From: Mesonia aquimarina
Lineage (GTDB): Bacteria; Bacteroidota; Bacteroidia; Flavobacteriales; Flavobacteriaceae
NCBI RefSeq assembly: GCF_003667275.1
Contig: NZ_RCNV01000001.1
Location: 620,001 to 684,000, forward strand
Direction of reading: 5' to 3'
Length of the DNA: 64,000 bases
The position numbers and the translations under genes are program-made. The notes under the pieces were generated by a model. The model did no database searches and had not been told where the DNA came from. It saw only the letters and a program-made list of their open reading frames with translations. Below, one piece after another: positions 8,202-20,758 of the stretch. Positions within the stretch are counted from its first letter, which is position 1. Each line of letters starts with the position of its first letter.

Positions 8202-11200
8202 ATGATTCTCTTCTTCGGAAATCCTTCTCAAACCGTTTACACCGTACAAACTCATCAAAAAATCAGTGCAGAAAATATTGAAAAACTGCAATGGCTTTTT
8301 GGGCATAGTCCGCAAATTCAAGAAACTACATTAAAAGGAGATTTTGTAGGTCCTCGTGCCGCTATGATTACGCCTTGGAGTACCAATGCTGTAGAAATTA
8401 CCCAAAATATGGGAATTGAAGGAATAATCAGAATTGAAGAATTTCACGGCGTAGCTGCTGATTTTTCAGATTTTGACCCGATGCTTTCACAAAAATATCA
8501 CGAAATTCATCAAGATATTTTTGATATTCATATTGAACCGGAAAGCATTAAAGAAATTGATGATATCGCAGCTTACAATCAAAAAGAAGGTTTAGCCCTA
8601 AACGAAGAAGAAGTAAACTATCTAAAAAGTTTAGCTGAAAAATTAGGCAGAAAATTAACCGATTCTGAAGTTTTTGGCTTTTCGCAAGTCAACTCAGAAC
8701 ACTGCCGTCATAAAATTTTCAACGGAACTTTTATAATCGACGGCGAAGAAAAACCGAGTTCACTTTTTAAACTCATCAGAAAAACTTCAGAAGAAAATCC
8801 TAATGAAATCGTTTCCGCTTATAAAGATAATGTTGCCTTTATAAACGGTCCAACGGTGGAGCAATTTGCTCCAAAACGCGCCGATATTCCGGAATATTAT
8901 CAAAATAAAAATTTTGATTCGGTAATTTCGCTTAAAGCAGAAACACACAACTTTCCAACAACCGTAGAACCATTTAACGGTGCTGCAACAGGAAGTGGCG
9001 GAGAAATTCGCGACAGACTTGCAGGTGGAAAAGGTTCTTTACCACTTGCCGGAACTGCCGTTTATATGACTTCTTACAGCCGTTTAGAAGAACGTCCATG
9101 GGAAAAAGCGATGAACGAACGCAAATGGTTGTACCAAACACCAATGGATATTTTAATAAAAGCTTCAAACGGAGCTTCAGATTTTGGTAACAAATTCGGT
9201 CAGCCATTAATCTCAGGTTCTGTGTTAACTTTTGAACACGAAGAAGAAAACCGAGCTTTAGGGTATGATAAAGTAATTATGCTTGCCGGCGGAATTGGTT
9301 ACGGAAAAAAAGATCAAGCATTAAAGGATGTACCTAAAAAAGATGACCAAGTCGTTATTTTAGGAGGAGAAAATTATAGAATTGGGATGGGCGGCGCCGC
9401 GGTGTCTTCAGCAGATACAGGAGAATTTAGCAGCGGAATTGAATTAAACGCTATTCAACGTTCTAACCCGGAAATGCAAAAAAGAGCTGCTAACGCTATT
9501 CGCGGAATGGTAGAAGCTGATGAAAATCCGATTGTTTCTATTCACGATCACGGAGCTGGTGGACATTTAAATTGCTTAAGCGAACTGGTTGAAGAAACCG
9601 GTGGAAAAATCGATCTTGATAAATTACCAATTGGTGATCCTACACTTTCTGCTAAAGAAATAATCGGAAACGAATCGCAAGAGCGAATGGGCTTGGTTAT
9701 CGGTCAAAATCATATAGATACTTTAAAAAAGGTTGCCGATAGGGAACGCTCGCCAATGTATGAAGTTGGTGCAGTGACAGGCGATCATCAATTTACATTT
9801 GAAGGAAGTAAAACAAAACAAAAACCAATGGATTTGGCACTTACCGATATGTTTGGAAGTTCGCCAAAAACCATTATGAATGATAAAACCGTTCAGCGTA
9901 ATTATGTTGAATTAAATTACGATAACGCTAAAATTTACGACTACGTAAATCAATTGCTACAATTAGAAGCTGTTGCTTGTAAAGACTGGTTAACCAACAA
10001 AGTAGACCGTTGCGTTTCGGGGAGAGTTGCTAAACAACAAACCGCTGGTCCGCTTCAACTTCCTTTAAATAATGTTGGCGTAATGGCCTTAGATTATAAA
10101 GGAAAAGAAGGCGTTGCTACTTCTATTGGCCACTCGCCTATTTCAGCTTTAATTGATCCTGTTGCCGGTTCTAAAAATTCGGTTGCAGAATCTTTAACCA
10201 ATCTAATTTGGGCGCCTTTACAAAAAGGTTTAAAGTCGGTTTCGCTTTCTGCAAATTGGATGTGGCCTTGTAATAATGAAGGCGAAGATGCACGTTTATA
10301 TGAAGCGGTAAAAGGCTTATCTGATTTTGCAGTCAACTTAGGCGTAAATGTTCCCACCGGGAAAGATTCGCTTTCGATGAAGCAAAAATATCCTGATAAA
10401 GAAGTGATCGCTCCGGGAACTGTAATTGTTTCGGCTGCCGGAAATTGCAACGAAATAACAAAAGTAGTTGAGCCGGTTTTACAAAAAAATGGCGGTACTA
10501 TTTATTACATCAATTTATCGCAAGATTCGTTTAAGTTAGGAGGTTCTTCCTTTGCGCAAATTTTAAATAAAATTGGTACTGAGGTTCCGACGATTAAAAA
10601 TGATGAAAAATTTGCTTCAGCATTTAATACAATTCAGCAATTAATTAAAGATGATTTAATTGTAGCCGGACACGATGTTGCTTCAGGCGGATTAATCACG
10701 ACGCTTTTAGAAATGTGTTTTGCCGATACAAATTTAGGAGCAGAGTTAGATTTAACGAGTTTAGGAGAAAAAGATTCAGCAAAAGTTTTATTCAATGAAA
10801 ATAGCGGAATTGTTTTTCAAGCAAAAAATGAGTCAGTTGAAAAAATCTTAGCTGAAAATAATATTGAATTTTTCCAAATCGGAAATGTAAATAATGACGA
10901 AAAACTAAGACTAAAAAATCACGATGATACTTTTGAATTTGATATTCCAACGTATCGTGATGCTTGGTATAAAACTTCGTATTTATTAGATCAAAAACAA
11001 AGCGGAAAAGAAAAAGCTGAAGAGCGTTTTACAAACTATAAAAAGCAGCCGCTTCAATTTGATTTCCCTAAAAATTTCACCGGAAAACTTCCACAAATCG
11101 ATAAAAAACAACCGAAAATAAAAGCGGCTATTATTCGTGAAAAAGGTTCTAATTCTGAACGTGAAATGGCGCGCGCTATGCATTTGGCCGGGTTTGACGT

Positions 11201-11861
11201 AAAAGATGTTCATATGACCGATTTAATTAGCGGTCGCGAAACCTTAGAGGATATTCAGTTTATTGCAGCCGTTGGCGGTTTCTCTAATTCAGATGTTTTA
11301 GGAAGTGCTAAAGGTTGGGCTGGTGCATTTTTATACAATGAAAAAGCCAATAATGCTTTAAAGAAATTCTTTGCTCGAAAAGACACGCTTTCATTAGGTG
11401 TTTGCAATGGTTGTCAACTTTTTATTGAATTAGGCCTCATAAATCCTGATCATACTGAAAAGCCAAAAATGTTGCACAACGATTCGCATAAATTTGAATG
11501 TAACTTTACTTCAGTTGAAATTCAAGACAATAATTCCGTAATGCTTTCTAATTTAGCCGGAAGTAAATTAGGGATTTGGGCAGCGCACGGCGAAGGAAAA
11601 TTCAGTTTTCCATATGCGGAAGAAAAATATAATATTGTTGGAAAATATGGATACCAAAATTATCCTGCTAACCCGAATGGATCTGATTTTAACACAGCAA
11701 TACTTACCGATGATTCTGGTAGACATTTAGTAATGATGCCACACTTAGAGCGTTCAACATTTACGTGGAATTGGGCAAATTATCCTAGCGATAGAAATGA
11801 TGAAGTTTCACCTTGGTTGGATGCTTTTGTTAATGCAAAAAAATGGATTGAAAAACATTAA
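8202..11861 (+). CDS. purL: Phosphoribosylformylglycinamidine synthase (large single-chain form)
   Basis: This 1219-residue enzyme carries out the fourth step of purine synthesis, FGAR plus glutamine and ATP to FGAM. It is the long form found in Gammaproteobacteria and Bacteroidota, with the PurS-like, linker, two PurM-like synthetase and glutaminase parts in one chain. The linker has SEVFGFSQVNSEHCRHKIFN. The first synthetase half has LKAETHNFPTTVEPFNGAATG. The C-terminal class I glutaminase has the nucleophile Cys1068 in LGVCNGCQLF, the triad region His1129 in AAHGEGKF, and a final HLERSTFTW block. The length is normal and I see no frameshift. It appears monocistronic between two terminators. 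Confidence 0.97.
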   Translation: MILFFGNPSQTVYTVQTHQKISAENIEKLQWLFGHSPQIQETTLKGDFVGPRAAMITPWSTNAVEITQNMGIEGIIRIEEFHGVAADFSDFDPMLSQKYHEIHQDIFDIHIEPESIKEIDDIAAYNQKEGLALNEEEVNYLKSLAEKLGRKLTDSEVFGFSQVNSEHCRHKIFNGTFIIDGEEKPSSLFKLIRKTSEENPNEIVSAYKDNVAFINGPTVEQFAPKRADIPEYYQNKNFDSVISLKAETHNFPTTVEPFNGAATGSGGEIRDRLAGGKGSLPLAGTAVYMTSYSRLEERPWEKAMNERKWLYQTPMDILIKASNGASDFGNKFGQPLISGSVLTFEHEEENRALGYDKVIMLAGGIGYGKKDQALKDVPKKDDQVVILGGENYRIGMGGAAVSSADTGEFSSGIELNAIQRSNPEMQKRAANAIRGMVEADENPIVSIHDHGAGGHLNCLSELVEETGGKIDLDKLPIGDPTLSAKEIIGNESQERMGLVIGQNHIDTLKKVADRERSPMYEVGAVTGDHQFTFEGSKTKQKPMDLALTDMFGSSPKTIMNDKTVQRNYVELNYDNAKIYDYVNQLLQLEAVACKDWLTNKVDRCVSGRVAKQQTAGPLQLPLNNVGVMALDYKGKEGVATSIGHSPISALIDPVAGSKNSVAESLTNLIWAPLQKGLKSVSLSANWMWPCNNEGEDARLYEAVKGLSDFAVNLGVNVPTGKDSLSMKQKYPDKEVIAPGTVIVSAAGNCNEITKVVEPVLQKNGGTIYYINLSQDSFKLGGSSFAQILNKIGTEVPTIKNDEKFASAFNTIQQLIKDDLIVAGHDVASGGLITTLLEMCFADTNLGAELDLTSLGEKDSAKVLFNENSGIVFQAKNESVEKILAENNIEFFQIGNVNNDEKLRLKNHDDTFEFDIPTYRDAWYKTSYLLDQKQSGKEKAEERFTNYKKQPLQFDFPKNFTGKLPQIDKKQPKIKAAIIREKGSNSEREMARAMHLAGFDVKDVHMTDLISGRETLEDIQFIAAVGGFSNSDVLGSAKGWAGAFLYNEKANNALKKFFARKDTLSLGVCNGCQLFIELGLINPDHTEKPKMLHNDSHKFECNFTSVEIQDNNSVMLSNLAGSKLGIWAAHGEGKFSFPYAEEKYNIVGKYGYQNYPANPNGSDFNTAILTDDSGRHLVMMPHLERSTFTWNWANYPSDRNDEVSPWLDAFVNAKKWIEKH

Positions 11862-12320: not shown

Positions 12321-13727
12321 ATGCAAAAATCACAAATTTCAGAAAAATCGTCTCTTTTAGCTACTATACAAAAGTTTACAACCGCTAAGCCTTTAGTTTT
12401 AGCAGCAACTTTCTTACTGTTGTTTGGAGCAGTTTTTTTAACCTATTTTTTTCATCCTTATTTTGAAGAAATTCAAATCGAACGACTCAATTCTTTTTGG
12501 GGAAATCTACTTGCCATAGCCGGAACAATTATAATAACCGCCAATTTAAGTTTCTTAGGCTATATTTTTATACTTTATTTTAAATATAAAGTTTCCAAGT
12601 CTGTTTCAGATGAAGAATTACCAAGCTGCACCGTAATTGTACCTGCTTATAATGAAGGAAAATTAGTTTATAAAACCCTTATAAGTTTAGCCGAAAGTAA
12701 CTATCCTGATAAAAAAGTTCAACTAATTTCTATAGACGACGGAAGTAAAGACGATACTTGGCAATGGATGCAAAAAGCGAAAAACGAATTAGGAGATCGC
12801 GTAGCAATTTATCAACAGCCAAAAAACAAAGGAAAAAGACACGCGCTTTATCGTGGTTTTCATTTGGCAACCGGTGATGTTTTTATAACAGTAGACAGCG
12901 ATTCTATTGTAAAGAAAAACACCTTACGAAATATGGTTAGCCCATTTGTACTGAATGCAGAATGTGGTGCTGTGGCCGGAAATGTAAAAGTATTAAACAA
13001 TCAAAAAGCGCTAATCCCGCGTATGCTTAATGTGAGTTTTGCTTTTAGTTTTGAGTTTGTTCGTTCTGCGCAAAGTGTTTTAGGGTCTGTTTTATGTACA
13101 CCTGGTGCGCTAGCCGCATACAAAAAAGAAGCTGTTTTAAATTGCTTACCAGAATGGATTAATCAAACATTTAACGGTCAGCCCTCTGATATTGGTGAAG
13201 ATCGCGCAATGACCAATATGATTTTAAAGCAAGGTTATAAAGTATTATTTCAACGCAACGCTTATGTTTACACTAACATTCCCGAACGCTATAAAAACTT
13301 ATACAAAATGTTTATCCGTTGGGAACGTAGCAACATACGTGAAAATATTGCGATGACAAAATTTGCATTTACAAATTTTAGAAAAGGCTCAAAAACAGGA
13401 ACAAGAATTTTACTTTTAAATCAATGGTTTAAAATTTTATTAGCTTACCCACTAATGTTATCCATGCTATTTCTTATTTGTATGTATCCACTTTTATTTT
13501 TAAGTTCATCACTTATAGGAATTTTAATTTTCTCTAGTTTTCAAGCCTTATTTTTCGCTAAAAAACATAGTATCACAGAATCATTTTGGGCTTATCCTTA
13601 TAGCTTGTTTTATACATTCAGTCTTTTCTGGATTACACCTTACGCTATTGCAACAGCTAGCAGAAGTGGATGGTTAACAAGAGAATTGCCGGTAAGCAAA
13701 ATTAAAAAACCACAACAAGTAGCTTAA
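12321..13727 (+). CDS. Membrane glycosyltransferase family 2 (processive, hyaluronan-synthase/NodC-like)
   Basis: This 468-residue protein has two N-terminal hydrophobic helices (about residues 28-48 and 70-92), a GT-A catalytic domain, and further helices at about 375-440. The catalytic motifs are visible: the nucleotide-binding VPAYNEG and DDGSKDD, the metal-binding Asp residues in VDSDS, an acidic GEDRAMT, and an RW pair in MFIRWERSN that corresponds to the QxxRW motif of processive synthases. Such enzymes make and often extrude beta-linked exopolysaccharide such as hyaluronan, chitin oligomers or poly-N-acetylglucosamine. The sugar is not predictable here. No partner genes lie beside it, and the inverted repeat at 12202-12222 may control it. 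Confidence 0.85.
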   Translation: MQKSQISEKSSLLATIQKFTTAKPLVLAATFLLLFGAVFLTYFFHPYFEEIQIERLNSFWGNLLAIAGTIIITANLSFLGYIFILYFKYKVSKSVSDEELPSCTVIVPAYNEGKLVYKTLISLAESNYPDKKVQLISIDDGSKDDTWQWMQKAKNELGDRVAIYQQPKNKGKRHALYRGFHLATGDVFITVDSDSIVKKNTLRNMVSPFVLNAECGAVAGNVKVLNNQKALIPRMLNVSFAFSFEFVRSAQSVLGSVLCTPGALAAYKKEAVLNCLPEWINQTFNGQPSDIGEDRAMTNMILKQGYKVLFQRNAYVYTNIPERYKNLYKMFIRWERSNIRENIAMTKFAFTNFRKGSKTGTRILLLNQWFKILLAYPLMLSMLFLICMYPLLFLSSSLIGILIFSSFQALFFAKKHSITESFWAYPYSLFYTFSLFWITPYAIATASRSGWLTRELPVSKIKKPQQVA

Positions 13728-13864: not shown

Positions 13865-15649
13865 ATGACCGAAGTTAAAAGACTATTTGATTTTCCGCAC
13901 TATCAGTTAGAAAAGTATAACCTAGAAAAAGCATTAGTAACAAAATACGACGGCAATTGGGTTATTACCTCTACAAAGGAATATATTGATAAAGCCAATA
14001 AAATTAGCCGAGCTTTATTAAGATTAGGTGTAAAATCTAAAGATAATATAGCACTAATCTCTACTTCAAATCGTACGGAGTGGAATATTATGGATATTGG
14101 TATATTACAAATTGGTGCTCAAGACGTGCCTATTTATCCCAATATTTCTAAAGAAGAGTATGAATATGTTTTAAATCATAGCGAATCCAAATATTGCTTT
14201 GTTTCAGACCAAGAAGTTTTTGAAAAAGTTGAAGCCATAAAAGATAAAGTACCTAGCTTAAAAGGAGTTTATACTTTTGATCAAATTAAAGATGCAAAAA
14301 ACTGGAAAGAACTTCTAGAGTTAGGGGAAGATGACAGCAACCAACAAGAAGTAGAAAAAATTAAAGATAGTATTTCTGAAGACGATTTAGCAACAATTAT
14401 TTATACTTCAGGAACCACAGGAAAACCAAAAGGGGTTATGCTATCCCACAAAAACATTGTAAGTAACGCTGTTAATAGTACCACACGACTTCCCATTGAC
14501 GAAGGAGAAAATATTGCCCTTAGTTTTTTACCAGTTTGTCATATTTATGAGCGCATGCTTCTTTATCTTTATCAGTACAATGGAATCAGCATTTATTTTG
14601 CTGAGTCAATTGATAAAATAAGTGATAATTTGAAGGAAGTAAGACCTCAGGTAATGTCTGCTGTTCCTCGATTACTAGAAAAAGTCTACGATAAAATTAT
14701 TGCTAAGGGCACTGCTCTTACAGGAATTAAAAAGAAACTTTTTTATTGGGCGGTAGAGTTAGGACTAGAATTTGAACCGTATGGCAGAAATGGCTGGTGG
14801 TACGAAACGAAACTAAAACTTGCAAGAAAACTTATTTTTAGCAAATGGCAAGAAGCATTAGGCGGAAGGTTAGAAGTTATTGTTTCCGGCAGCGCACCTT
14901 TACAACCTAGATTAGCCCGTGTATTTAATGCCGCAGATATTTGTGTGGTAGAAGGTTACGGACTTAGTGAAACATCACCCGTATTGGCAGTAAATGATAT
15001 GCGTGATTATGGCTTTAAAATAGGAACGGTAGGAAAACCGATCCCTGAAACCGAAATTAAGATTGCTGAAGACGGTGAAATTTTAGCCAAGGGTCCACAA
15101 ATAATGATAGGTTACTATAAAGACAAAGAAAAAACAGATGAAGTTTTAGAAAACGGTTATTTTCATACCGGAGATATTGGCGAAATTGATGACGAAGGGT
15201 TTTTAAAAATAACCGATCGTAAAAAAGAAATGTTTAAAACTTCGGGCGGAAAGTATATTGCTCCTCAATTGATAGAGAATGCAATGAAACAATCACGATT
15301 TATCGACCAAATTATGGTAGTTGGAGAAGGTGAAAAAATGCCAGCAGCTTTAATTCAACCTAACTTTGAATTTGTTGAAGATTGGGCAAAACGTAAAAAA
15401 ATTGATGTCGGAAATTCTCAACAAGAATTAGTTGAAAATGATGCTGTCATCAAAAGAATTCAGGAAGAAGTAGATTTTTACAATGAGCGTTTCGGAAAAT
15501 GGGAGCGCGTCAAGAAATTTGAACTTACTCCAGATGTTTGGTCAGTTGATAATGAACTTTTAACACCCACCATGAAAATGAAACGAAAAGTAATTAAAGA
15601 AAAATATAAAGATTTATACAGTCGTATTTATGATAATCATTCTGTATGA
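13865..15649 (+). CDS. Long-chain fatty acid--CoA ligase (AMP-dependent synthetase, FadD-like)
   Basis: This 594-residue ANL-superfamily enzyme activates fatty acids to acyl-CoA through an acyl-adenylate. Motif A3 reads YTSGTTGKPKGVMLSH, motif A5 is GYGLSETSP, and the hinge/A7-A8 region has YFHTGDIGEIDDEGFLKITD. The A10 lysine region lies near TPTMKMKRKVIKEKYKD at the C-terminus. The form resembles the bubblegum/long-chain type common in Bacteroidota. Together with the MarR-HAD/ECH-thiolase-acyl-CoA dehydrogenase genes from 20306 on it makes up a beta-oxidation pathway. Its 3' end exists a second time as a decayed fragment at 19944-20080. A terminator follows at 15668. Confidence 0.92.
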   Translation: MTEVKRLFDFPHYQLEKYNLEKALVTKYDGNWVITSTKEYIDKANKISRALLRLGVKSKDNIALISTSNRTEWNIMDIGILQIGAQDVPIYPNISKEEYEYVLNHSESKYCFVSDQEVFEKVEAIKDKVPSLKGVYTFDQIKDAKNWKELLELGEDDSNQQEVEKIKDSISEDDLATIIYTSGTTGKPKGVMLSHKNIVSNAVNSTTRLPIDEGENIALSFLPVCHIYERMLLYLYQYNGISIYFAESIDKISDNLKEVRPQVMSAVPRLLEKVYDKIIAKGTALTGIKKKLFYWAVELGLEFEPYGRNGWWYETKLKLARKLIFSKWQEALGGRLEVIVSGSAPLQPRLARVFNAADICVVEGYGLSETSPVLAVNDMRDYGFKIGTVGKPIPETEIKIAEDGEILAKGPQIMIGYYKDKEKTDEVLENGYFHTGDIGEIDDEGFLKITDRKKEMFKTSGGKYIAPQLIENAMKQSRFIDQIMVVGEGEKMPAALIQPNFEFVEDWAKRKKIDVGNSQQELVENDAVIKRIQEEVDFYNERFGKWERVKKFELTPDVWSVDNELLTPTMKMKRKVIKEKYKDLYSRIYDNHSV

Positions 15650-15667
15650 TTTTAGTAGATCAAAACA

Positions 15668-15700
15668 AAAAACTCCGAACTTATGAGTTCGGAGTTTTTT
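15668..15700 (+). terminator. Rho-independent terminator after acyl-CoA synthetase
   Basis: AACTCCGAACT/AGTTCGGAGTT encloses a TATG loop, is flanked by A and T runs, and begins 19 bases after the synthetase stop. The A/T symmetry allows it to stop transcription in both directions, which suits the convergent DUF3857 genes. Confidence 0.85.
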
Positions 15701-15777
15701 GTTTAAAATAATTTTAGCTTGAATAAAATTTATGCGTTGCTTGAATAAAAATAAATCAACATAATATAATTCAACTT

Positions 15778-17937
15778 TTATATTTTTTCAAACATAACTT
15801 TCTGGCTATTAAATTTTAATGAAGCATCTAGTACTTCTAATATTTCACCCCAGTTATCGTTAGAGATTTCGGTTTGCTTATAAGTCTTTGTTGCTTGCAA
15901 TGTTAATTTATTATTTTCAATTTTAGCAGAACTTATAAATGAAGCGAATTTATTATCCCTTTTAATATTTAAATTTTCTAAACCAATTACTTTAAACCCT
16001 TTAGGAATATCTACTTGTATTTTACTTTCATAAGTACGAGGAAAGTTCATATAAATGTCCTCTTTCCTTTTTCTATCTTCATCGTCCAAGTCTAATTGCT
16101 TACCATTTAATTTCCCTATTTCAAATATATAGTTTGGGCCTGCTTTTTTAATTAAATCATTCTCAACGATAAATGTATTCTGGAAAATTAATTCATCTTG
16201 ATCGTTTTCTCTTCCTGTATTTAAAACTTCTATGGTATTATCTTTTACTTTAAAATCGAAACTTCTATTTAGATATTTTACAGAATTTTTGTTTCGTTCT
16301 TGTGTTATTTTTTCAACTAAGGCATCGTACTTTTCTTTATGCCTGGCAGATTTCTTTTTCGGTAATCGCTGAAAGTAATCTTGCGTGTTAAAACGCTTAT
16401 GATCTTCGTCAACATAATCAAAGAAATACAAAATATCTTCTTGTTTACCTTCTTTAAAATGACCGGAGTATTTATTTTTAGATTGGATATTTATTTTTGA
16501 AAATTCATTATCAAAGGAAACTTCCATTTCATCTTTTGAATAATTTTGATTTGCTTCTGTACCAGGAATAGTTATTTCATAAATTTCTTTAATTCTTTTT
16601 TTATCCAAATTATAAGGTAATTCGTATGCTTTAGTATTTTCAAAATAAGGTGAATTTAATTCTAATGTTGAAAACATATCAAAGTAAGAGAGATAAATCG
16701 GTTTATCTAAATTAACTTTAATTAGAATTTTAATATCATCTGTCGATAAAATATCATTTATACTTCCTTTATATTTTGGTACGGCAATTATAAACGAAAA
16801 TGGAATATCATTATCGCTCAAGGTTTCTCCAAACGCTTTTAAAAAATGATTTTCATTATTAAAATAACTAAGGTCAGGGTAGTATGCAAAAGGATTAAAG
16901 AGATCTTTTAAATCTAATTCATTAATTACAGACGGTTGTATATACTTAACTTTACGGTGATATCTTAAATAATAATAAGCCTCTTCTACCATCTCTTTTT
17001 GTGATATATCTCTATCTTTAAAATAACGTCTTGGCAGTGTTCCTGAATAATTTCTAAGTTTTCTAAACTTTTCCTTGAAGAAAGTTAGTACTTCTTCTTT
17101 AGTCACTTCATTTTTTATAATTTCTTCATCTTCTGATATAAAATTGAACACATCTTCCTCGTGAGCAGACCTTCTTGCAAAGGTGGTTTGAAATTTATAG
17201 TATGGTAACTTTAAGCGTGGATAAAACCATATTGGAAAATCATTTTTTTCAATTTCTTTAGCTCTTAGCACATAAAGTCTGTCATTTCTTTTTTCGGTTT
17301 GAATTTCTTCAAGTTTTGGAGCACCGTTATAAGAATTAAAATTTATGAAAAAATCATTCTCGGTTTGTAATTTTAAAACATACTCTTTACAAGGATAATA
17401 ATCATTTAAAACTTCCGTATTAAGTTCAAACAAATAGCCTTCTTTCTGCTTAAAAGGCTCCACAATATGGACGTAATAATCTATAATATCGCCAACTTCA
17501 AGTCCAGATATTGCTAATTTATATTCATTCTCCTCCTTTTCTACAGCTTCTTCATCTACCGATATGATTCTTTCTTCTCCAGAAGGTTTTATTACTTTTA
17601 CACCAAGCGTTTTGGTTCCTCTTTTACCAAAATAACCACGATCTACTTTAAACCTTTTATCAAAATTAAATTCAGAAAACTCTTTAACAGAAGCTTGATC
17701 TTGTAGCTTAATTCTTTTATGAATGGATTTTGTATACTTTACGTTTCTACCAAATTTATGATAGTCATAATAATATTCTTGAAATAGAATTACAGCAGAT
17801 TCGTTTTTCCACTTTTCTGGAATTTCTGTATTGCCATTTTGAGATCCATTCCAGTATTTTGAATCAAGTTCTTCATTCTGAGAAAAGCTTATGTAACTAG
17901 TAAAGCAAATGAATAGAATTATTAGATTTTTCATCAT
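15778..17937 (-). CDS. DUF3857-domain secreted protein with degenerate transglutaminase-like domain
   Basis: This 719-residue exported protein has a signal peptide of about 19 residues ending FS-QNEEL. The N-terminal half matches the DUF3857 pattern, with YTKSIHKRIKLQDQASVKEF and an IISVDEEAVEKE region. The middle, where a transglutaminase-like fold is expected (about residues 290-420), lacks the GDC-K catalytic cysteine motif of its neighbour; the corresponding stretch reads YYPDLSYFNNENHFLKAF. It is probably a non-enzymatic partner. Its start overlaps the stop of the upstream DUF3857 gene by four bases (ATGA), so the two are translationally coupled. By eye the pair is more AT-rich than its neighbours. 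Confidence 0.75.
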   Translation of the reverse strand: MMKNLIILFICFTSYISFSQNEELDSKYWNGSQNGNTEIPEKWKNESAVILFQEYYYDYHKFGRNVKYTKSIHKRIKLQDQASVKEFSEFNFDKRFKVDRGYFGKRGTKTLGVKVIKPSGEERIISVDEEAVEKEENEYKLAISGLEVGDIIDYYVHIVEPFKQKEGYLFELNTEVLNDYYPCKEYVLKLQTENDFFINFNSYNGAPKLEEIQTEKRNDRLYVLRAKEIEKNDFPIWFYPRLKLPYYKFQTTFARRSAHEEDVFNFISEDEEIIKNEVTKEEVLTFFKEKFRKLRNYSGTLPRRYFKDRDISQKEMVEEAYYYLRYHRKVKYIQPSVINELDLKDLFNPFAYYPDLSYFNNENHFLKAFGETLSDNDIPFSFIIAVPKYKGSINDILSTDDIKILIKVNLDKPIYLSYFDMFSTLELNSPYFENTKAYELPYNLDKKRIKEIYEITIPGTEANQNYSKDEMEVSFDNEFSKINIQSKNKYSGHFKEGKQEDILYFFDYVDEDHKRFNTQDYFQRLPKKKSARHKEKYDALVEKITQERNKNSVKYLNRSFDFKVKDNTIEVLNTGRENDQDELIFQNTFIVENDLIKKAGPNYIFEIGKLNGKQLDLDDEDRKRKEDIYMNFPRTYESKIQVDIPKGFKVIGLENLNIKRDNKFASFISSAKIENNKLTLQATKTYKQTEISNDNWGEILEVLDASLKFNSQKVMFEKI

Positions 17938-19838
17938 GATTTTTGTAAAATAATTTGTTGATTAAAAAAGTTAGCAATTTGTTCCATTTTTTTATTCCAG
18001 CTTTCTAGCTCCTCTGCTGAAATAACTTCATTCAAAATTTTCATATTTTGTTGAAATTCTAAATTATTATCAACTTGATTCAGAATGATTTCAACCGATA
18101 CATTTTCATCTTTAAATGATAATGAAGTGGGCATTTCTAAAATTTTATATCCTGTAATATCTATATTTAATTCTGATTGAACTGTCTTTTTATGGGAGAA
18201 AACATAACTCGATTTTCTGTCTTCAAAAAAGTAATCAGAAAAAATATTTACTAGATTTAAATCTAAATAGGTCTTTTTACCGAAGGAGTAAATTTTATCA
18301 TTAAATAAAATATCGTAGGTTATAACCATATCACCTTCTCTATTTCTTAAGTTAGAGGGTTTTATATTATTGGCCTTTACAGAAGAATTGCCTTCTTCTA
18401 AGAAATATTTTAAAAAATCTTCTTTTATATCACTCTGTAGTGTATTTAAATAATTTAACACCTGCTTTCTACTCTCGCCTGTGTAAGTTAGTTTAGCCTT
18501 CCCAACTAAATCATCTTCAACAATTTTTAAATTGATATTTTTATTTTCAACACTTTTTTCCGAGTCTAAAACAGGAACTTCTTTAATGATATATTGCTTA
18601 CCGTTTTCAATTAAGGCTTGTTTACCTTGAATACGGTTTGCATATTCTTTATAAGGACTAAACTTTTCTGTAGCATCTAAAAAAATTATTTTTTCTTTAT
18701 CTAGTACAGAACAAATCATATGATTATCTACCGCTAAATTTGGAGTTGAATAATCGTAAGCAATATGGTTTGTTCCAATCCAAGTAAGTCTTGCATCTAC
18801 TCCTATTTCAGAAAGCATGGCTTTAGTTAGATTTGCCATTCCTTTACAATCTCCGTATCGCTTATCAAAAACCTCGCTGGCTTGTTCTGGTTGAAAACCT
18901 GCAATACCGTCTTCAAAAGCTATATACCTAATATTATCTTGTATCCAGTAAAAAATATTTTTAATTTTCTCTTCTTTACTTGTTACTCCCTCTGTAAGTT
19001 CCGCTACTTTTTTTGCATAAGGTTTTTTAGCATAATCTAGATTATTTACTAAACTCTTGTACCAGTTATACTGATCTTGCACAGAAGAAAATATATTCTT
19101 TTCTATTCCGTCAAGTTTATATCTCTTAGGTAAGACTAACAAATGAGGATAAATATAAGTTGGTCCTAAACTATGCTTTTCTTTAAATCTTGCTGGTAGA
19201 TTAGTTGCTTTATAAGTATATCCAGTAAAATCTTCGTTCTTTTTTACCTCTTTTTCAATTTCAACGTTTTCGAAATTAACTTCTTTAAACTGAATATCTA
19301 ACCAGTTTGGGACTTCAATTTTAATTGTTTTTTCTTTTACAGGATGTTCATCATTAAAATAAATTGAGGTGAAGTATTTTAAATCATTATAAACCTTTTC
19401 AGTCTCTATTTTATACTCAAATCCTTGCAGCGGAAAGTCTAAAACAACATATTGTAACCTTGTGTCTGTGTGAAATAATTCATCATCTTGATAAGCTATG
19501 TCTTCAATTTCTACATTTGCATTTCTACCATTTATATATTCTACATCAAAATCTTTTATTTCTGAAGAACCATCATAAAAACTATACCTTCTAATATAAG
19601 CTTTAGTATCTATATTTATAAGTTCTTCTTGTGTATTATTTTCAACAATAACCTGATCTCTTTTATAATCAAATAAAATTCTTTCAACGCTTTTACTAAC
19701 CACAATTTCATCATCCGGATATTTTTCTTTTAGTGAGAGTGCTTCTTCAATGATCTCTGGTTCGGGTTTCCGGTGTTTTTGAGAAAAACAAATTATAGGA
19801 ATAAATAATAATATTAGTAGTTGCTTATGAAATACCAT
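17934..19838 (-). CDS. DUF3857 and transglutaminase-like secreted protein
   Basis: The product is about 634 residues. I start it at the ATG at 19838, because MVFHKQLLILLFIPIICFSQ is a good signal peptide; the upstream in-frame ATG at 19895 would add 19 residues that spoil it. DUF3857 fills the N-terminal third. The transglutaminase-like core follows with RYGDCKGMANLTKAML (catalytic Cys), DNHMICSV (His) and FLDAT (Asp), so the Cys-His-Asp triad looks intact. Such proteins are exported in Bacteroidota; the substrate is unknown and they may act as peptidases or cross-linking enzymes. It forms a two-gene operon with the triad-less partner downstream. Confidence 0.8.
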   Translation of the reverse strand: MVFHKQLLILLFIPIICFSQKHRKPEPEIIEEALSLKEKYPDDEIVVSKSVERILFDYKRDQVIVENNTQEELINIDTKAYIRRYSFYDGSSEIKDFDVEYINGRNANVEIEDIAYQDDELFHTDTRLQYVVLDFPLQGFEYKIETEKVYNDLKYFTSIYFNDEHPVKEKTIKIEVPNWLDIQFKEVNFENVEIEKEVKKNEDFTGYTYKATNLPARFKEKHSLGPTYIYPHLLVLPKRYKLDGIEKNIFSSVQDQYNWYKSLVNNLDYAKKPYAKKVAELTEGVTSKEEKIKNIFYWIQDNIRYIAFEDGIAGFQPEQASEVFDKRYGDCKGMANLTKAMLSEIGVDARLTWIGTNHIAYDYSTPNLAVDNHMICSVLDKEKIIFLDATEKFSPYKEYANRIQGKQALIENGKQYIIKEVPVLDSEKSVENKNINLKIVEDDLVGKAKLTYTGESRKQVLNYLNTLQSDIKEDFLKYFLEEGNSSVKANNIKPSNLRNREGDMVITYDILFNDKIYSFGKKTYLDLNLVNIFSDYFFEDRKSSYVFSHKKTVQSELNIDITGYKILEMPTSLSFKDENVSVEIILNQVDNNLEFQQNMKILNEVISAEELESWNKKMEQIANFFNQQIILQKS

Positions 19839-19943
19839 ACAAGTCGTGTAAATATTAAATATAAATCTTGAATTTTTTTTATTATAAAACTGCAATAACT
19901 ATAATATTTATAAATAAAGCAAATTATATTAACATTTTTAAAT

Positions 19944-20080
19944 CGCAAAAAATTGATATCGAGAATCCTCAAAAAGAATTAGTTGAAAATGTTCACCTCA
20001 ATACTACTATGAAAGTAAAATGAAGAGTAATAAATATAAAGACCTATACAGCCGTATTTACGATAATCATTCTGTATGAT
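19944..20080 (+). pseudogene. Decayed second copy of the 3' end of the acyl-CoA synthetase gene
   Basis: Two blocks align to the intact synthetase gene. Block 1 (19944-19990) matches 15392-15440 and encodes IDIENPQKELVEN against IDVGNSQQELVEN. About 115 bases are then missing. Block 2 (about 19995-20080) matches 15560-15650. An in-frame CGA-to-TGA change makes a stop in the MKMKRK stretch. The last 14 codons encode the same peptide, YKDLYSRIYDNHSV, with four differences that are all synonymous T-to-C changes. This points to a paralog or allele once under selection and now mostly deleted. No upstream part of the gene survives; the DUF3857 pair sits where it would have been. Confidence 0.85.
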
Positions 20081-20254: not shown

Positions 20255-20288
20255 TATTATGCGTGCATAATAATTTTTTCTATATTTG
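20255..20288 (+). promoter_or_regulatory. Promoter and candidate MarR operator for the fatty-acid degradation operon
   Basis: TATATTTG at 20281-20288 fits the Bacteroidota -7 motif TAnnTTTG and lies 17 bases before the MarR ATG. Right upstream, TATTATGC-GT-GCATAATA at 20255-20272 is a perfect inverted repeat with 8-base arms. It covers the position expected for the -33 element. MarR-family repressors bind such short palindromes, so autoregulation of the operon is likely, though inferred. Confidence 0.6.
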
Positions 20289-20305: not shown

Positions 20306-20758
20306 ATGAGAGAAAAAACAATAGATTATGTTTTGAGAGCTACCTGGATAGCCGTTGCCAAAATGTACAATGAAGAAGCAGGTAAAAAAGGAAGTACCAT
20401 GGCAACCGGATTTACATTATTAAATATAGATCCAGAAGAAGGAACGCCTTCTACTTCACTTGGGCCAAAAATGGGAATGGAAGCAACCAGCCTTTCGCGA
20501 ACGTTAAGAGCGATGGAAGATAAAGGTTTAATTGTTAGAAAAAAAAACCCGGAAGATGGTAGAAGCGTACTCATCCAACTCACAGAATTTGGACGAGAAA
20601 TGCGAGAATTTTCTAAAGGCGTCGTCTTAACTTTTGATGAAGCCGTTAAAGAAGCTGTTCCCGAAAAAGATTTAAAAACATTTATGGATGTTGCAAATAC
20701 CATTATGGAAATGATCAATAATAAAAAAATTTATAAATCAGAAACTACGGTAAAATAA
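20306..20758 (+). CDS. MarR-family transcriptional regulator
   Basis: This 150-residue winged-helix regulator has a recognition region at MEATSLSRTLRAMEDKGLIV and a wing with RKKNPEDGRSVLIQLT (about residues 58-97). It ends one base before the HAD/ECH gene and so is the first gene of the beta-oxidation operon. Related regulators sense acyl-CoA or fatty acids; that ligand is inferred from context. The palindrome at 20255-20272 is the likely binding site, and binding there would block the promoter. Confidence 0.9.
   Translation: MREKTIDYVLRATWIAVAKMYNEEAGKKGSTMATGFTLLNIDPEEGTPSTSLGPKMGMEATSLSRTLRAMEDKGLIVRKKNPEDGRSVLIQLTEFGREMREFSKGVVLTFDEAVKEAVPEKDLKTFMDVANTIMEMINNKKIYKSETTVK

Follow-up and report, generated by a model that had tools for sequence, protein, structure and literature searches.

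How did a decayed piece of an acyl-CoA synthetase gene come to lie directly before marR, separated from the intact gene by two genes of the opposite strand? Many bacterial genes come without a visible mobile element, and their joining-in is seldom observed; displaced gene ends, such as the one found in the 64,000-nucleotide stretch of Mesonia aquimarina DNA analysed here (the window), mark one route.

The intact gene is a fadD-type acyl-CoA synthetase (13865..15649, plus strand; 594 aa; P0001; Pfam PF00501 and AMP-binding_C_3). At E ≤ 0.001, 57 of 60 genomes (own included) contain some match to it, however weak, and its own genome contains one. The decayed copy (19944..20079, plus strand), identified by DNA search, alignments, profile and shuffles, corresponds to the last 258 nt of fadD (15392-15439 plus 15554-15649): in the alignment, 48 nt equivalent to 15392-15439 with one A lost are followed by the gene end, shortened by a 7-nt deletion and interrupted by a TGA in frame, the intervening 114 nt (15440-15553) being absent and the fragment closing with its own stop codon at 20077-20079. 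A search of the own genome with 15392-15700 as query recovered it as two plus-strand pieces, one of 45 bp at 89% and one of 76 bp at 81%; apart from these, the query matched only itself and its palindromic terminator. Against the 4656-bp interval, the 3′ 600 bp of fadD reached a best score of 84, as compared with at most 39 among 500 dinucleotide-preserving shuffles, 496 of which gave some match. The broken copy proposed by a sequence-only reading of this DNA is thereby confirmed, as are the four differences from the intact gene that it had noted in the last 14 codons (GAT/GAC, TTA/CTA, AGT/AGC and TAT/TAC, all T-to-C and synonymous by alignment), and its claim that the fragment derives from a working fadD is supported.

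The fragment lies where a fadD end would usually stand. Among the best 80 of 565 relatives (80 named loci), 69 have fadD upstream of marR, in the same orientation and inside the retrieved sequence, with a gap of less than 600 bp in 43 of those 69 and a median of 222 bp over all 69; fadD upstream of marR is thus the common layout. This bears out the earlier view that a fadD end belongs before marR, and since one fadD beside marR is common, the complete paralog that the same reading supposed lost becomes unnecessary. Within the genus, fadD and marR share a contig in 14 Mesonia genomes, and in 10 of these the gap is short, at 137-457 bp (the 137 bp of G009 allowing for its frameshift), these empty sites coming from the genus rather than from strains of M. 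aquimarina itself, and none of the 10 carries a fadD-end copy (best E 0.028, equal to its control). An insertion between fadD and marR, as proposed before, is supported, and the two conditions named as refuting it did not do so: the fragment is missing from the short-gap relatives without the pair, and its closest synthetase is the fadD of its own genome, not an unrelated one.

The inserted genes (both minus strand) encode proteins of 719 aa (P0002; 15778..17937) and 653 aa (P0003; 17934..19895, with a TTG as its listed start). Once nested ORFs are removed, no other ORF of 80 aa or more is left in the interval. The description of a "DUF3857 pair" holds for P0003, which contains DUF3857 and Transglut_core; P0002 gave no Pfam match at E ≤ 0.001. 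Both have relatives at the same place in M. phycicola (51% and 60% aa identity, respectively), and for P0003 no other match exceeded 31% identity among 16 genus genomes. G+C content is 27.7% in the pair, 33.9% in fadD, 37.8% in marR-fadB and 32.2% in the window. The pair most likely stands outside the beta-oxidation operon. When P0002 was searched against 397 family genomes (an even draw, with two candidates scored per genome), a full-length match was found in 34, own included; in all 20 loci fetched from the other 33, which belong to other genera, both pair genes are adjacent. No fadD or purL orthologue was found in these 20 loci (two have a 21-25% fadD-like match), nor any 3′-end copy of a neighbouring gene, and none shows the donor-like order of fadD then pair.

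Inserts occur in four of the 14 Mesonia genomes, two of which have a fadD-end copy. M. phycicola has the same gene pair in the same position and, with it, a fadD-end copy of 82 bp, identical at 80 of 82 sites (98%); its fadD end and terminator flank the pair as a direct repeat of 175 columns at 86%. In a further genome, G014, where fadD and marR are on different contigs, fadD is followed by an ECF-sigma cassette, unrelated to the DUF3857 pair, and then by a 501-bp fadD-end copy at 93.6%. A fadD 3′-end profile was applied to the fadD-marR intervals of M. aquimarina, M. phycicola, M. oceanica, M. algae, G001, G006, G012 and K7, to the 3 kb preceding marR in G014 and G015, and to the sequence that follows the G014 copy; it recovered nothing beyond the known copies in M. 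aquimarina and M. phycicola; likewise, 27 of 29 long fadD-marR intervals, including those of M. oceanica and K7, gave no match better than E 0.026, with controls reaching 0.002. In M. aquimarina, M. phycicola and G014, a direct repeat of target sequence flanks the insert, with one junction within fadD and the other variable, the copies beginning about 258, 82 and 501 nt before the gene end, respectively.

The reading that we favour, at a probability of roughly 60%, is that one-sided homology drove a gene insertion in which an incoming fadD end with its cargo recombined at fadD; the fragment would be its scar, and would be annotated as such in the window. A piece of DNA derived from a near relative, with a working fadD 3′ end ahead of the two DUF genes, would have recombined with the resident fadD, so that the upstream gene remained whole and continued into the terminator and cargo that arrived with the piece. 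The other end of that DNA would have been joined inside the resident fadD 3′ region, either through single crossover of a circularised piece or through an illegitimate junction, and the fadD end displaced to beside marR, useless there, would have decayed. The donor, the order of the crossovers, the pathway and which end is resident are what we infer. In favour of this reading, comEC- and dprA-family genes are present. Similar scars in some related bacteria suggest ordinary DNA recombination, and not a dedicated mobile element, as a way for genes to be added at gene ends of this sort.

One question is whether the fragment is a copy of today's gene. At five sites, chosen after the fact, it shares its base with 15, 13, 15, 8 and 12 of the 15 other Mesonia, as against 0, 1, 0, 2 and 0 for the intact fadD; because these bases are common in relatives and missing in the intact gene, the fragment is probably not a copy of the present-day fadD, as judged from these alignments. 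The five sites abut the 114-nt gap and therefore depend on the alignment, and over all 25 differing sites the genus majority sides with the intact gene 11 times and with the fragment 8 times, which is what decay would produce. In G014, 22 synonymous and 5 non-synonymous codon differences separate the intact gene from the copy over 492 nt, where 19% synonymous would be expected at random, and the two have thus mostly diverged as working genes; the copy and the intact gene agree with M. oceanica at 18 and 6 sites, with M. mobilis at 9 and 15, and with G004 at 7 and 14, respectively. In M. phycicola, both ends are too alike to separate resident from incoming, and local duplication or gene conversion fits equally. 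Segment-wise identities and informative sites hint at a less clade-like 3′ stretch of fadD in M. oceanica and G014; a recombinant tract is not claimed because they demonstrate no clean chimeric breakpoint.

Duplication of fadD or of its 3′ end within the genome, followed by entry of the cargo between the copies and decay of the downstream one, would account for the fact that each of the three copies is nearest to the fadD of its own genome, for the near identity of the M. phycicola ends, and for a C-terminal tail common to the M. aquimarina fragment and intact gene and absent from the other 17 species rows. Each of three lineages would need two or more events for it, and the genus-common bases of the fragment, the mostly synonymous divergence of the G014 copy and the 10 short-gap Mesonia without a copy argue against it, so that we consider it unlikely. 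Alternatively, the whole block (fadD end, pair and fragment) might have been inherited by homologous exchange from another Mesonia already carrying it, which is consistent with the presence of the pair here and in M. phycicola, non-sisters in the rpoB tree, and with the absence of an insert from G004, the rpoB sister of M. phycicola. However, the two fragments are 68% alike over 75 sites and the proteins 51-60%, implying an old transfer, and such an exchange shifts the origin to another genome; we regard it as improbable.

Integrative elements in gene 3′ ends leave a whole gene upstream and the displaced end at the far side, as here, and a 20-bp exact match across the stop codon, the longest between the intact and fragment ends, resembles an attachment site. 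An integrase-type element that entered at the fadD 3′ end with its own version of that end and later lost its integrase is nonetheless very improbable. No integrase gene was found among the ORFs of at least 80 aa in the M. aquimarina interval, and no constant core when the ends of the three species were compared by eye and the longest exact match in M. aquimarina was considered; moreover, the edges of the copies vary from one species to the next, the cargos bear no relation to one another, and the pair occurs elsewhere in the family (20 loci) without neighbouring gene-end repeats. The integrating element with an attachment core offered by the sequence-only reading is hence disfavoured.

The proposed insertion at fadD would be a natural instance of a type of event already described. 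Insertion with long target duplication was reportedly found in Helicobacter pylori by Nobusato and colleagues in 2000, often with restriction-modification genes. As reported, it likewise places an insert between long, variable-length direct repeats of resident sequence, seen by genome comparison; it differs in its frequent restriction-modification cargo, which Pfam did not find in the M. aquimarina pair or in two G014 cargo proteins, and in that the sequence repeated here comes from the 3′ end of a core gene, a whole copy of which is kept. In Escherichia coli, single-crossover integration of incoming plasmid DNA yields partial duplications of 109-950 bp (PMC3240628), a size comparable to the ~258, 82 and 501 bp here. 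Single crossover and homology-facilitated illegitimate recombination (HFIR) share with our case a one-sided homology and the addition of foreign DNA; those events are from the laboratory, and HFIR there usually deletes resident DNA, whereas here the resident end is kept.

More tentatively, and at somewhat less than even odds, purL-fadD-marR may be a recurrent landing zone in Flavobacteriaceae, used by homologous recombination at conserved gene ends without an element's own recombinase. Displaced 3′ ends would then be countable scars of accessory gene gain, and a count of them across genomes, if feasible, would make it measurable how much gene gain comes from simple recombination at conserved gene ends. 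The cases comprise fadD ends (M. aquimarina, M. phycicola and G014), purL ends (M. oceanica, Aequorivita todarodis and Salinimicrobium sediminis) and, in a Salinimicrobium MAG, the end of a hydrolase-like gene immediately before marR. Of 63 purL-fadD gaps, 3 contain a purL-end match at E ≤ 1e-8; the mid-purL control (where enough purL sequence was available) and the fadD-start control gave none below 1e-5.

To gauge the background rate, genes of at least 150 aa were searched for intergenic copies at E ≤ 1e-4. M. aquimarina (464 kb, 367 ORFs) gave three matches: the fadD fragment, one downstream same-direction 3′-end copy and one upstream mid-gene match. No 3′-end copy was found among five matches in G014 (408 kb, 310 ORFs; four from one gene, its known 501-bp copy being filtered out as it lies within an ORF), six in G013 (400 kb that exclude the fadD locus, 295 ORFs; five from one gene), or three in the 20 pair loci, two of these three matches being 5′-end copies. 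Seven matches came from the 80 named loci (899 ORFs; best 80 of 565 relatives), five of them counted as downstream 3′-region copies (M. oceanica purL, M. phycicola fadD, L165, L170 and L211), although by automatic labelling only two of the five reach the gene end, two end 16 nt short and the purL tail of L170 was completed by eye; the sixth is the same L165 place from an overlapping ORF and the seventh an upstream mid-gene match. Because 5′-end copies also occur, no 3′ preference is claimed, and because the sets differ in taxa and selection, no p-value is given.

The flanks add detail on both sides. A palindromic, terminator-like hairpin (15667..15704; inverted self-match) lies 3′ of the intact fadD, also facing the convergent DUF gene, and matches the spacer of the uninserted M. 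mobilis only weakly (E 0.009 and 0.032). Beside marR, M. oceanica and G014 keep the usual spacer with its terminator, as compared with M. mobilis (85.7% over 119 bp and 85.6% over 125 bp), and it is absent from the fadD side of M. oceanica and, as judged by eye only, of G014; in M. aquimarina, the spacer beside marR is unrecognisable apart from 35 bp near a palindromic operator-like site (20257..20270), conserved in relatives, upstream of marR (20306..20758, plus strand; Pfam MarR) and the beta-oxidation genes that follow. In the marR-fadB tree, G014 groups with M. mobilis and M. phycicola falls outside its rpoB clade, so that the history of the right flank is not simple. On the purL side, the gap to fadD measures 2003 bp here versus 49-375 bp in many relatives, and a 468-aa gene within it (12321..13727, plus strand) is probably another insert of the neighbourhood.

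In the 3.28-Mb genome of Mesonia aquimarina, purL (window 8202-11861, named from its relatives) is followed by a gene for a 468-aa protein and by fadD (13865-15649), after which two minus-strand genes convergent with fadD, encoding a 719-aa protein and a DUF3857/transglutaminase protein (hereafter the pair), and a displaced fragment of the fadD 3' end (19944-20079) precede marR and the beta-oxidation genes. The fragment corresponds to two pieces of the fadD end, with small deletions and one stop inside; its score against that end (84, versus a maximum of 39 for shuffled sequence) is far above chance level, and it is the sole additional copy of the fadD end in this genome at the sensitivity of that DNA search.

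To place this arrangement, relatives of MarR were gathered with up to 10 kb per side, and the best 80 of 565 were used, the named same-genus relatives being Mesonia species and Haloflavibacter putidus. fadD lies upstream of marR on the same strand in 69 of these 80 loci, with a gap below 600 bp in 43 and a longer one in 26, while in the other 11 it is absent from the stretch or not on the marR strand. Adding further genomes gave 87 distinct rows, with 58 short and 29 long gaps. A single fadD near marR is thus the commonest layout, and inserts between the two are frequent. In the Mesonia group, both genes share a contig in 14 of 16 genomes (they are on separate contigs in G014 and G015), ten with short gaps and four, M. 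aquimarina, M. oceanica, K7 and M. phycicola, with inserts. No fadD-end copy was found in the ten short gaps, the best match (E 0.028) being equalled by the control. In the Mesonia-group genome G009, fadD is broken by a frameshift (L103 967-1001), either genuine or an assembly error.

Among the 29 long intervals, a strong match to the genome's own fadD end occurs only in the window and in M. phycicola. The latter carries a relative of the pair (51% and 60% aa identity) and an 82-nt copy identical to its own gene at 80 of 82 sites. The usual terminator is retained too, and the pair is therefore bracketed by a 175-column repeat (86%) made up of the fadD end and the terminator. In G014, fadD is followed by an ECF sigma factor (Pfam), a 177-aa gene in the position expected of an anti-sigma gene, a 363-aa gene that has no Pfam match and that we take to encode a DUF4097-type protein, and a 501-bp fadD-end copy. 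M. oceanica shares this cassette (87% DNA identity), with no fadD-end copy visible beside it. The post-fadD spacer of uninserted relatives still adjoins marR in M. oceanica, G014 and M. phycicola; in M. aquimarina it is unrecognisable there, save for 35 bp near the operator. Copy lengths and spacer remains together indicate that the marR-side junction varies in position, falling at one extreme about 501 nt short of the fadD end and at the other a few nt past it. The G014 contig end behind the copy (L108 1-773) resembles a transposase remnant by eye, and marR, on another contig, is preceded by a surface-protein-like ORF.

Between the G014 copy and its intact counterpart, 22 codons differ synonymously and 5 non-synonymously, against a random expectation of 19% synonymous changes, so that both ends probably diverged for the most part as functional genes. 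In M. aquimarina, the fragment shows the base common among relatives at five neighbouring sites, at which the intact gene is isolated or almost isolated. Of the 25 sites at which the two differ, the genus majority sides with the intact gene at 11 and with the fragment at 8. The two have in common a C-terminal tail absent from all other alignment rows. Because of this site pattern and the common tail, the fragment probably derives from a fadD of the same lineage, yet one not identical to the present gene.

The inserts are patchy, as their restricted occurrence shows: among 16 genus genomes, the pair is found above 31% identity only in M. aquimarina and M. phycicola, and the G014 cassette gene has a strong match only in M. 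oceanica and G014. In the rpoB DNA tree, where many forks are open, M. oceanica has G014 as its sister, M. phycicola groups with G004, which lacks an insert (support 89/99), and M. aquimarina falls outside the clade of these four; the marR-fadB tree disagrees, joining G014 to M. mobilis and placing M. phycicola outside that clade. The common possession of the pair by M. aquimarina and M. phycicola means transfer at the locus, several losses, or two arrivals. Across the family, 34 of 397 genomes, M. aquimarina included, were found to encode a protein related to the 719-aa one over its full length. At the 20 other loci examined the two genes are always adjacent, no fadD or purL orthologue adjoins them, and no 3'-end copy lies nearby; the pair is an ordinary two-gene unit.

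We favour insertion by one-sided homology as the explanation for the set of fadD-end copies and inserts, with a probability of about 0.6. The anchor gene would remain whole, a terminator would come with the foreign part, and the far junction would be free to fall wherever the next gene's promoter stays intact. Local duplication, by which the fragment would be a copy of fadD made in place, is a weaker candidate. Transfer of a ready-made block seems improbable, and a decayed integrase-type element very unlikely; an integrating element was among the origins proposed in the sequence-only reading. One-sided homology has a counterpart in Escherichia coli, where conjugated plasmid DNA, cut linear, is reported to have integrated by single crossover with partial duplications of 109-950 bp in the 14 clones sequenced (PMC3240628). 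This kind of event has been described under the name of insertion with long target duplication, and also as single-crossover or homology-facilitated insertion; the novelty here lies in the locus, its cargo and its recurrence, and no report of this locus was found within the literature covered. comEC- and dprA-family genes are present as well, a gene content that would be compatible with transformation.

Displaced gene ends are also found at other loci. A second scar of the same anatomy in M. aquimarina (C11:22834-26524, equal to L264 2834-6524) consists of a 220-aa gene, presumably ATPase-like, a convergent four-gene cassette, presumably metal-resistance-like, and behind it a 53-bp copy of the 220-aa gene's end (81%). 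Displaced or decayed purL 3' ends lie behind purL in M. oceanica, Aequorivita todarodis and Salinimicrobium sediminis (stretches L139 1-2931, L211 2294-6892 and L170 3-1760). Elsewhere the rate of 3'-end copies is low: none was among the matches in 808 kb of the Mesonia-group genomes G013 and G014, a set that lay outside the known G013 locus and from which the known G014 copy had been filtered. In a Salinimicrobium MAG (L165 2132-7987), the sequence immediately before marR is an 81-bp copy of a hydrolase-like gene's end, and no fadD was found in that stretch. In G013 (L304 361-6467), the start of one 196-aa ORF is repeated at five more places within about 6 kb. Finally, a palindrome, TTATGCGTGCATAA, lies upstream of marR (window 20257-20270), and a site resembling it occurs in four genus genomes (L032, L034, L013 and L021, near 1501-1541), upstream of a gene pair that we take to encode electron-transfer flavoprotein; such sites at both places hint at a MarR regulon.
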